A stretch of 64,000 bases of DNA from Microbacterium algeriense (GTDB lineage: Bacteria > Actinomycetota > Actinomycetes > Actinomycetales > Microbacteriaceae). Location: positions 496,001 through 560,000 of the forward strand of contig NZ_WAAO01000002.1 of the NCBI RefSeq assembly GCF_008868005.1, given 5' to 3'. Of the stretch, positions 33,648 through 42,550 are shown piece by piece. Under the pieces are notes generated by a model that had not been told where the DNA came from, made no database searches, and worked only from the letters and a program-made list of their open reading frames with translations. Position 1 is the first letter of the stretch, and each line of letters starts with the position of its first letter. Position numbers and translations under genes: made by a program.

Positions 33648-34017
33648 GGGGCTGATCGGTTTCGACAGCGCCTGTGAATCCACGAGAAGCGGGCCGAGGA
33701 TGCAGAGTTATCTCGTAAACGCTCTCTGCAAAAAAATAGTTGCCGAAACCAAGCGCAACGACTTCGCCCTCGCTGCATAAGCGAGCCCGATAGTCCGTCA
33801 GGCCGTATGTGATTCCGGTACGGATCCTGGCGTCATCTAGGAATCTTGCTGCGTGACGGCGTCTGGACGTCACGTGGGACTCTTCCCAGGCTGGGCTCGT
33901 CGACTTAGGTGTCTGTGACAAAGGTCGGAGCCGAGTAGAACGTCTTCACAGACTGCGCCCGGAGAAGGCGTGGAGACTCAGCGTTGGACGGGGGTTCGAT
34001 TCCCCCCAGCTCCACCA
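33648..34017 (+). ncRNA. ssrA: Transfer-messenger RNA (tmRNA)
   Basis: A one-piece tmRNA of about 370 bases. The tRNA-like ends pair as GGGGCTG (33648-33654) with CAGCTCC (34007-34013), followed by A and an encoded CCA. The T-arm GGGTTCGATTCCC is intact. The reading frame starts after AATAGTT at GCC 33742 and stops at TAA 33778, giving the tag AETKRNDFALAA after the charged alanine. The tag marks stalled proteins for Clp degradation. Pseudoknot segments lie between 33781 and 33960. A 16-bp terminator follows. Confidence 0.97.
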
Positions 34018-35539: not shown

Positions 35540-36004
35540 ATGATCAACGCTGGATCCGGCGGAGCGACGAACGGGATCTGCGTCTTCTGCGAGATCGTCG
35601 CGGGGCGGGTTCCCAGTGACAAGGTCGCGGAAGACGCAGAGACGCTGGCGTTCATGGACATCGACCCGGGCGCGGACGGGCACCTCCTCGTCATCCCGAA
35701 ACGGCACAGTGCCGACCTGCTCAGCGTCCCGACGGACGATCTCGTGGCGACGACGGTGCTCGCCCAGCGGATCACCAAAGTCATGTACTCCGAGCTCGGA
35801 GCAGACGGCGTGAACCTCCTCAACTGCTGCGGCACCGCCGGCTGGCAGACGGTCTTCCACTTCCACCTGCACGTGATCCCGCGCTACATCGACAGGAGCA
35901 AGGACAGGATGGAACTGCCCTTCACCCCGGGGGCGCCGTCGGACGCCGAGGCCAGGAAGAGGTACGCAAGAACGCTCGCTTCCGCTCTTCAGACGGACGT
36001 GTAG
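35540..36004 (+). CDS. HIT family hydrolase
   Basis: A 154-residue histidine-triad nucleotide hydrolase or transferase. CVFCEIVAGRVP (about residues 14-25) carries the zinc-type cysteines of the HIT/HINT group, and the catalytic triad HFHLHVIPRY is at about 107-116 (H-x-H-x-H). Substrates of this group are AMP-lysine or other nucleoside phosphoramidates and dinucleotides. CATGAT lies seven bases before the ATG. Its last 16 bases overlap the end of trpS on the other strand. Confidence 0.92.
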   Translation: MINAGSGGATNGICVFCEIVAGRVPSDKVAEDAETLAFMDIDPGADGHLLVIPKRHSADLLSVPTDDLVATTVLAQRITKVMYSELGADGVNLLNCCGTAGWQTVFHFHLHVIPRYIDRSKDRMELPFTPGAPSDAEARKRYARTLASALQTDV

Positions 36005-37032
36005 TCCATGCCCATCGCCGTCCGCACTTCCCGCAGCGTCGCCGTGGCGATGTCGCGCGCTCGCTCGTGCCCCACACGGAGGACCTCCTGTGCGTCGCGG
36101 ACCGTGAGGGCGGCAAGGCGGCTGCGGTGATCGGCGAGGAACTCGTTGACCGCCTCGATGGCGAGGCGCTTGAGCGCGCCGGCTCCTGCTGCCCCCAGTT
36201 CGTCCGCGATACTCTGCGGGCTGCGTCCGAGGACGACCGCGGCTGTCTCGAGCAAGGCGGAGACGCCCGGCCGATCATCGGGATCATAGGTGATCGCGCG
36301 CTCGGAATCGGTGCGGGCGCGGTTGATCGCCGCGGCAGTCTCATCGGCGGTCATGCCCAGAGCGATCGCGTTGCCATAGCTCTTCGACATCTTCCTGCCG
36401 TCGAGCCCCGGCAGCTCGGGGGCGTCGGAGAGGAGCGCCTGCGGCTCGGGGAACACCCGACCATAGCGCTCGTTGAAGCGACGCGCGATGGTGCGGGTGA
36501 CTTCCACATGCGGCAGGTTGTCTTTTCCGACCGGCACGAGATTCCCCTTGCAGAAGAGGATGTCGGCGGCCTGATGCACGGGATAGGTGAGCAGAAGACC
36601 GCTGAGCGCGCGACCGGAGGCGGCGAGCTCCGCCTTGACGGTGGGATTCCTGTGCAACTCGGATTCCGTCACCAGACTCAGGAAGGGCAGCAGGAGCTGA
36701 TGCAGAGCCGGCACGGCGGAGTGGGTGAAGATCGTCGTCGACCGCGGATCCAATCCGGCGGCGAGGTAGTCCAGAACGGCGCCGTGGACGTTCTCCCGGA
36801 GGTTGCCGGCGGAGTCGCGATCGGTGATCACCTGGTAGTCGGCCAGCACCACGAACGTCTCGACCCCGTGCGCTTGGAGGCGGACGCGCTCCCTGATCGT
36901 GCCGAAGTAGTGCCCCAGATGCAGTCGCCCGGTCGGGCGTTCTCCGGTGAGCACCCGGAAACGCTCCGGATGATCGATGGTCGCCTGACGAAGGTCGGGC
37001 ATGCGCGCCGCGGTAGCGCTGAATGAGTCCAT
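35989..37032 (-). CDS. trpS: Tryptophan--tRNA ligase
   Basis: A 347-residue class I synthetase charging tRNA-Trp. The HIGH-type motif is in TGRLHLGHYFGT (about residues 31-42), and the KMSKS loop is intact in GRKMSKSYGN. The length is normal. The ATG at 37032 is set by GAGGAG seven bases upstream; the open frame continues further but only as leader RNA. Upstream lies an attenuator with a Trp-rich leader peptide (37084-37163), so expression should rise when charged tRNA-Trp is scarce. The 3' end overlaps the HIT gene by 16 bases. Confidence 0.95.
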   Translation of the reverse strand: MDSFSATAARMPDLRQATIDHPERFRVLTGERPTGRLHLGHYFGTIRERVRLQAHGVETFVVLADYQVITDRDSAGNLRENVHGAVLDYLAAGLDPRSTTIFTHSAVPALHQLLLPFLSLVTESELHRNPTVKAELAASGRALSGLLLTYPVHQAADILFCKGNLVPVGKDNLPHVEVTRTIARRFNERYGRVFPEPQALLSDAPELPGLDGRKMSKSYGNAIALGMTADETAAAINRARTDSERAITYDPDDRPGVSALLETAAVVLGRSPQSIADELGAAGAGALKRLAIEAVNEFLADHRSRLAALTVRDAQEVLRVGHERARDIATATLREVRTAMGMDYTSV

Positions 37033-37083: not shown

Positions 37084-37135
37084 GCGGACTGCCGGGCAGC
37101 CCGCGCGTGAAAGCGTTACGGCTGCTCGTGCAGCC
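37084..37135 (-). promoter_or_regulatory. Tryptophan attenuator hairpins of trpS
   Basis: On the minus-strand transcript: segment 1 GGCTGC (37135-37130) pairs with segment 2 GCAGCC (37125-37120). Segment 3 GGGCTGCC (37102-37095) pairs with segment 4 GGCAGTCC (37093-37086) in a 9-bp hairpin. Segment 2 can instead pair with GGCTGC of segment 3. A ribosome stalled on the Trp codons would cover segment 1, free segment 2 for 2:3 pairing and prevent 3:4. No U-run follows 3:4, so how it stops transcription is unclear. Confidence 0.75.
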
Positions 37136-37163
37136 ACCACCAGGACGAAACGGTGAAACGCAT
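37116..37163 (-). CDS. trpS leader peptide with three consecutive Trp codons
   Basis: A 15-residue reading frame, MRFTVSSWWWLHEQP, ending in TAA 84 bases before the trpS start. Codons 8-10 are TGG TGG TGG, a run very unlikely by chance. TATCCT (37171-37176) lies seven bases before the ATG and no ribosome site is present, as expected for a leaderless mRNA that starts at this codon. Its last six codons form the first hairpin of the attenuator. Trp attenuation upstream of trp genes is known in actinobacteria; this one senses charging for the synthetase itself. Confidence 0.82.
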   Translation of the reverse strand: MRFTVSSWWWLHEQP

Positions 37164-37238
37164 AGGCCACAGGATACAGAGACTTCAGCAGCCGCCGTCA
37201 TCCGTAAAGATTCGGCACTGCGCGATAGCGTGGGGACG

Positions 37239-42367: not shown

Positions 42368-42440
42368 GCACCTCTAGCTCAATCGGCAGAGCAACTGACT
42401 CTTAATCAGTGGGTTCAGGGTTCAAGTCCCTGGGGGTGCA
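42368..42440 (+). tRNA. tRNA-Lys (CTT anticodon)
   Basis: A 73-base cloverleaf. Acceptor arms GCACCTC (42368-42374) and GGGGTGC (42433-42439), with discriminator A42440. D-arm AGCTCAATCGGCAGAGC; anticodon stem ACTGA/TCAGT with the loop CTCTTAA, anticodon CTT reading AAG; T-arm CAGGGTTCAAGTCCCTG. CCA is not encoded. No duplicated 3' end or integrase is nearby. Confidence 0.97.
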
Positions 42441-42550
42441 CGGATCAGCCTCGGAATCTCTCGCCAGATTCCGGGGCTTTTTCGCATCCGCGAACGGGCG
42501 CTATTTTTGTGCAGGAGTGCCGGATGGCGCTCGCACTCGGAAGGCACTCC

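Follow-up and report, generated by a model that had tools for sequence, protein, structure and literature searches.

The leader of the Escherichia coli trp operon, with its 1:2, 2:3 and 3:4 pairing logic, and the attenuators of the ermC type, in which a hidden ribosome site is released, are two familiar forms of attenuation. In actinobacteria, Seliverstov et al. (2005) placed a predicted attenuator of the classical kind upstream of the trpS2 gene of Streptomyces avermitilis (PMC1262725); the Microbacteriaceae genome in that study was Leifsonia xyli, for which the parts of the text available to us mention no trp element. An indolmycin-resistant auxiliary tryptophanyl-tRNA synthetase (TrpRS1) has been described in Streptomyces coelicolor (Kitabatake 2002; Vecchione and Sello 2009, as cited in PMC9437257), and leaderless polycysteine short ORFs in mycobacteria have been associated with attenuation of downstream genes (Canestrari 2020, as described in PMC9031893).

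The element considered here precedes a trpS gene of Microbacterium algeriense. It lies in a stretch of 64,000 nucleotides, hereafter the window (assembly GCF_008868005.1, contig NZ_WAAO01000002.1, positions 496,001 to 560,000), and all coordinates without further qualification are positions in that stretch. A sequence-only reading had proposed a Trp leader peptide and attenuator at this place, and our comparative analysis has led us to a more specific proposal, namely a ribosome-mediated Trp attenuator of an auxiliary trpS, with an output falling mainly on the translation of that gene. To this statement as a whole we give a probability of roughly 0.6.

The leader and its alternative pairings

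On the minus strand the leader ORF, MRFTVSSWWWLHEQP, comprises 15 codons and extends from its ATG at 37163 to the end of its stop codon at 37116, with three consecutive Trp codons, TGGTGGTGG, at 37142-37134, just as first described; 83 bases then intervene before the trpS ATG at 37032. Upstream, TATCCT (37176-37171) is followed by GTGGCCT and then the leader ATG, and would be the -10 box of a probable promoter. The suggestion that this mRNA is leaderless finds support on sequence grounds. A TAnnnT motif precedes the leader ATG by 4-9 nt in 61 of the 62 non-redundant leaders, and does so for 79 of the 2743 ATGs that these loci contain at large; in the leaders its distance is 6 nt in 38 leaders, 7 nt in 21 (59 of 62 at one or the other) and 9 nt in two. 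Because this distance is fixed at 6-7 nt, the comparison argues for a leaderless transcript, lacking a Shine-Dalgarno sequence and driven by a -10 element at that spacing, which probably starts at, or adjacent to, the leader ATG itself.

In the fold of the window copy, segment 1 (GGCUGC, 37135-37130), which overlaps the Trp codons, and segment 2 (GCAGCC, 37125-37120) form a hairpin of 6 bp at the end of the leader. A second hairpin joins segment 3 (CGCGGGCUGC, 37105-37096) to segment 4 (GCAGUCCGCG, 37092-37083); this too had been recognised, but it has 10 bp around a CCG loop and not the 9 bp originally counted. The GCAGCC of segment 2 is complementary to GGCUGC both in segment 1 and in segment 3, so that the 1:2, 2:3 and 3:4 alternatives envisaged in the sequence-only reading are indeed present. 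Further downstream, segment 5 (CGGCGCAGCUCUC, 37061-37049) is an alternative partner for segment 3, with one bulge in the window, and in most relatives it is also complementary to the ribosome-binding site, a hairpin that is weak in the window; the Shine-Dalgarno sequence of trpS, AGGAG, is at 37042-37038. An outer stem (37113-37163) between segment 0 (GCGUU, 37161-37157) and segment 0' (AACGC, 37117-37113) encloses the leader ORF, joining its start to the stretch past its stop; this stem varies in step between relatives and in some would cover the leaderless start codon. The element as a whole reaches to the trpS start at 37032. The range first assigned to it, 37084-37170, omits segment 5 and the ribosome-binding site (37061-37034) at one end and the -10 box (37171-37176) at the other.

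Folding energy alone is unconvincing as proof of such an element, since the window copy exceeds its shuffles only mildly (z -1.78; 9 of 200 did as well), and the case therefore rests on conservation. No Rfam family reaches its gathering score in this region, and a T-box or other known RNA family was rejected, there being only three sub-threshold matches to unrelated families. The leader pattern matches once in its own genome, at this locus; a reversed control pattern matches twice, and the match count is therefore no measure of chance.

Comparison of related loci began from 74 candidates, of which two with a different architecture (L040, L131) and two identical copies of L188 (L189, L190) were omitted, leaving 70 leaders in 70 loci. 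Sixty-eight of these are distinct; 47 have three Trp codons and 23 have two. They were thinned by similarity to non-redundant sets of 62 and 44, and two loci with a divergent leader type (L012, L013) were kept out of the alignments. Loss of the Trp codons or hairpins in close relatives would have counted against the sequence-only reading; instead, a leader with two or three Trp codons proves to be kept in 48 of the 49 Microbacterium genomes that have this trpS (46 in the leader set and the two with a divergent WWW leader). The exception, L195 (genome G929), has no leader and a decayed-looking trpS, the first 73 codons of which are unmatched. Elsewhere in the family sample the leader is present in 15 of 16 genomes, L040 included, the exception being L032, described below. 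Before the housekeeping trpS, an upstream ORF with the pattern W.?W was found at none of 19 loci. A covariance model built from the set of 44 gave 12 matches in 119 Microbacterium genomes, one place in each and all directly before this trpS by their coordinates. Since members of the model match by construction, the weight of this result lies on the absence of matches elsewhere, under search filters so strict that weak matches may have been lost.

The RNAalifold consensus of 44 relatives contains only hairpins 1:2 and 3:4, and four of their 16 pairs show double changes. The alternative pairing 2:3 makes standard pairs in 98.9% of 264 cells; because its pairs are mostly invariant it shows little covariation, and 38-39 of 500 shuffles score as high on the covariation measures. 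In a permutation test on 62 sequences, which compared the duplex energy of own and permuted partners, z was -9.6 for 0:0', -7.5 for 3:4, -6.7 for the anti-Shine-Dalgarno pairing and -5.1 for 1:2, falling to -3.1 for 4:R, -3.0 for 3:5 and -1.1 for the nearly constant 2:3. Among pairs that the model has no use for, 4:5, 2:5, R:5, R:6 and 1:4 give no signal, whereas 0:R has a z of -3.0; values near -3, including that of 3:5, must therefore be considered weak.

A second test exchanged segments between relatives of 70-92% identity and scored the energy cost. The outer stem 0:0' came out well (69 for and 13 against, of 139; 9 for and 3 against, of 27, when restricted to disjoint nearest pairs), and 3:4 was neutral (2 for and 2 against, of 96). 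Exchange within 3:5 cost energy in 22 of 111 pairs and gained it in none, the disjoint pairs dividing 2 against 2 of 18. The anti-Shine-Dalgarno pairing varies in step among distant relatives, as its permutation score indicates, but shows the reverse among close ones (37 positive and 104 negative, of 205; 6 against 6 of 26 disjoint pairs). A stem 4:4', the 4:R of the permutation test, which would join segment 4 to the sequence following it, was rejected; its z of -3.1 was obtained once, but its swaps divided into 40 for and 41 against, of 129, and 1679 of 2000 permutations were as good. A joint duplex of 3-4 with 4'-5 beats all 2000 permutations, with 7 disjoint pairs for and 4 against, of 22, and has a z of -0.35 in the window copy.

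These comparisons also bear on the view that nothing is regulated here, and that the region is either the start of a longer TrpRS, beginning at a GTG at 37170 and having 393 codons, or a chance ORF. The frame from this GTG is open into trpS in the window, but in L006 and L009 the corresponding frame contains stops within 60 nt of the trpS ATG, and among relatives the distance from the end of the leader stop to trpS varies between 76 and 106 nt, a variation incompatible with a coding extension; conservation, moreover, tracks RNA pairing. The stops and the variable spacing led us to reject an N-terminal extension, and absence of regulation in either form has, in our estimate, almost no probability. 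A leader of Trp codons with 1:2, 2:3 and 3:4 alternatives before trpS is borne out comparatively, and we consider it very probable that it constitutes a ribosome-mediated attenuator of this trpS.

An auxiliary trpS and the distribution of its leader

The target had been identified as the synthetase gene trpS, which is right as far as it goes, but the gene (35989-37032, minus strand; 347 aa) is an auxiliary copy and not the housekeeping trpS. Two TrpRS genes are present in the genome, with 36% identity to each other, and that in the window is the second. Its product scores above the NCBIfam trpS cut-off and has as its best solved relatives the TrpRS II entries 1yi8 and 2a4m of Deinococcus radiodurans; from its sequence we class it as an auxiliary, TrpRS-II-like tryptophan--tRNA ligase. 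The gene occurs in 49 of 366 genomes of Microbacterium, in 18 of 398 in the family sample (2 of the 18 being Microbacterium) and in 164 of 396 in the order sample. All 72 auxiliary copies, and all 20 copies from family f4, contain the motif ADYQVIT. The corresponding stretch reads DLHAIT in two of 19 housekeeping copies, the search pattern having picked up nothing in the remaining 17. The histidine of DLHAIT, replaced in ADYQVIT, presumably has a role in indolmycin tolerance, and the motif is a possible lead to such tolerance in the auxiliary enzyme.

A search with the housekeeping TrpRS divided 30 genomes of the order that have this gene type into 14 with two TrpRS and 16 with one. A leader of two or three Trp codons together with a -10 box precedes the gene in 11 of the 14; one-Trp leaders were recognised by eye in two more (L131, L213) and none was seen in L208. 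In the single-TrpRS genomes no such leader was found in the 15 upstream regions examined (G493 being left out). Two upstream ORFs that have W..W without a -10 box (L137, L203) did not qualify as leaders in this comparison. Genome G748 has two genes of this type, with a leader before the copy of 73% identity and none before the other (L214). In a family member with a genome of 2.1 Mb (L032, genome G168), the relative of 76% identity is leaderless, with TATCGT immediately before the trpS ATG, and no other TrpRS was found in that genome. Whether a leader is present tracks whether the gene is auxiliary, and it is absent where this enzyme type is the only TrpRS; the switch would therefore be tied to back-up use and not to housekeeping.

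Some copies are carried by mobile elements. At loci L188-L190 and L216 the auxiliary trpS and its attenuator are passengers of an IS21-family element (istA, istB), forming a 3.9 kb unit that has five equal-score matches on one chromosome; the three compared are 99.95-100% identical. Each of two plasmids has two trpS places, L216 belonging to plasmid A of Microbacterium sp. No. 7 (NZ_CP012698.1). Another plasmid trpS, with 71% identity, occurs on plasmid p1 of Rhodococcus sp. DN22 (L217, 2764-2995); its Trp leader starts with GTG, a U-run is lacking and 3:5 pairs over 10 bp. In the window, a VanZ-like gene (Pfam PF04892; 37023-37883, plus strand) diverges from trpS; the genuine start of that gene probably falls within the ORF as listed, in which case the two genes would share a short intergenic promoter region. 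The plus strand also carries a tmRNA with the tag AETKRNDFALAA (33648-34017) and a tRNA-Lys (42368-42441).

The level of control

We propose a model in which the stall, the switch, and the direction and level of control are all inferred from the anatomy described above. Given the position of the promoter, the transcript would begin at the leader ATG and a ribosome would start there without a Shine-Dalgarno sequence. When charged tRNA-Trp is ample the ribosome would reach the stop codon and hairpin 3:4 would form, leaving segment 5 to pair with the Shine-Dalgarno sequence and start codon of trpS, and the gene would be off. When charged tRNA-Trp is short, because the cell is starved or the housekeeping enzyme is inhibited by a drug, the ribosome would stall on the Trp codons and, judging from usual ribosome footprints, cover segment 1; segment 2 would be freed to hold segment 3, and 3:4 would not form. 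Segment 3 could then take segment 5 instead, exposing the Shine-Dalgarno sequence and start codon.

The pairing on which this second switch would depend, 3:5, is found in 97.1% of 483 cells across 44 sequences, with all 11 pairs varying, while slid controls give 33-51%. Among 500 shuffles, one reached this percentage, four the covariation score and 52 the number of pairs with double changes; the changes are mostly one-sided, to G-U, with double changes at two of the pairs, in three sequences. The outgroups L217 and L131 retain 3:5 in other letters, over 10 and 9 bp respectively. The stretch running from segment 5 up to the start codon folds better than shuffles, with a mean z of -2.43, and falls below -2 in 39 of 62 sequences, although in the window copy it is no better than shuffles (z 0.05). 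With 3:4 blocked, the computed opening cost of the ribosome site averages 8.1 kcal/mol in the 62 sequences, down from 10.4; the drop exceeds 0.5 in 44 of these and 3 in 25, and there is no lowering in 18. For the window copy the cost is 11.9 with 3:4 and 3.9 without it.

Holding segment 3 with segment 2 gives an opening cost of 12.2 kcal/mol, which is above that with 3:4 formed, and 2:3 and 3:5 are mutually exclusive, so that 2:3 could only be a placeholder. Equilibrium folding gave an accessibility of 0.14-0.20 and no switch whether segment 1, segments 1 and 2 or nothing was covered; showing no difference between ribosome positions, it was rejected as proof of the switch. With the site closed at equilibrium and costlier to open when 2:3 is formed, the switch would have to be kinetic, with 2:3 as the placeholder.

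What follows hairpin 3:4 bears on the level at which this operates. The sequence-only reading was correct that the window copy has no U-run there, but this is no oddity of that single copy, being common to 62 of 62 relatives: over the 12 nt downstream of 3:4 no T run in the 62 sequences is longer than three, and the mean is 1.55 T in 10 nt, with a maximum of 6 of 10 (L191). A U-run immediately after 3:4 is found in relatives outside the main set, namely L131 (CCCUUUUUUG), L040 (AUUUUUUUUG) and L210 (GUUUUGC). With U-runs absent from all 62 and present in these outgroups, we favour a translational output.

The same sensor might instead govern transcription termination at 3:4, with the actinobacterial polymerase stopping at a strong hairpin without a U-run, or through Rho, and with segment 5 and the ribosome-site hairpin setting only a basal level. 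We regard this as unlikely, though to be taken seriously. The U-runs of the three outgroups, which make it probable that the element was ancestrally an attenuator of transcription, are in its favour, as is the stability of 3:4, the most stable helix of the set with a mean of -20.3 kcal/mol; among published systems, as far as the sections available to us go, what has been predicted before Streptomyces trpS2 is attenuation of the classical kind (PMC1262725), and the leaderless trpL2 of Streptomyces lividans, which also has no U-rich stretch, is described in terms of termination (PMC8079986). Termination is harder to reconcile with the lack of any T run longer than three in the 62 sequences, and it leaves the complementarity of segment 5 to both segment 3 and the ribosome site unexplained. 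Control might also be mixed, a translational block being followed by Rho-dependent polarity within the untranslated trpS, such that protein and mRNA both change. This would fit the anatomy, and Rho has been suggested for actinobacterial cysteine leaders without U-runs in the portion of that survey we could consult (PMC1262725); however, the 83 nt that separate the leader stop from trpS form a short, structured stretch, and we consider mixed control very improbable.

Under the translational output that we prefer there is also the idea, put forward tentatively and at a little under even odds, that the attenuator changed its output during evolution. The outgroups would have kept the U-run, while here the terminator would have disappeared and the decision would be relayed through a further switch, segment 5 pairing with either segment 3 or the ribosome site. 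The result would be a leaderless element of at least six segments that both senses and controls translation, turns on a spare, drug-tolerant TrpRS, and travels with its gene even inside an IS21-type element.

Comparison with described attenuators

The trpRS1 gene of S. coelicolor is comparable in being an auxiliary, induced gene that stands beside a housekeeping TrpRS of about 30% identity. Ribosome-mediated transcriptional attenuation has reportedly been shown for it by experiment, in a paper of 2010, and it would differ from our proposal in this level of control.

The predicted attenuators of S. avermitilis trpS2 and of the trp operons of Corynebacterium and Streptomyces share with the Microbacterium element a short leader with double or triple UGG and overlapping antiterminator and terminator hairpins, and that of S. 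avermitilis likewise precedes a second trpS; in the parts of the study available to us the trp-operon terminators carry poly-U, which is missing here, where there is in addition a putative ribosome-site hairpin with segment 5 (PMC1262725). The trpL2-trpS locus of S. lividans TK24 is alike in having a leader before trpS, a leaderless transcript according to its RNA-seq start and hairpins without a U-rich stretch, but its leader has one Trp codon (MMTRTCTQLWRAA) and, in the passages we consulted, it is interpreted as acting by termination (PMC8079986). The mycobacterial polycysteine ORFs, in the description to hand, are similarly leaderless and short, with a run of one codon and attenuation of what follows, but they concern cysteine and not tryptophan, and operon genes and not a synthetase (PMC9031893).

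In the literature searched, mainly by titles and abstracts and with subscription papers largely outside it, we found no description of an element in Microbacteriaceae that lacks a U-run and has a segment 5. Attenuators before actinobacterial trpS genes have already been published; the form without a U-run and with segment 5 would be new. With it, trp attenuation reaches an auxiliary synthetase in Microbacteriaceae and near relatives, and the roughly 70 natural variants could serve to test the mechanism; the presence of a U-run in outgroups and its absence here make this family well suited to testing how an attenuator of transcription might turn into one of translation. Set against the E. coli trp leader, whose 1:2, 2:3 and 3:4 logic it shares, and attenuators of the ermC type, which it would resemble in releasing a hidden ribosome site, the Microbacterium element is distinguished by its five or six alternative segments and its probably leaderless start; and where the ermC type senses a ribosome stalled by a drug, what would be sensed here is charged tRNA.
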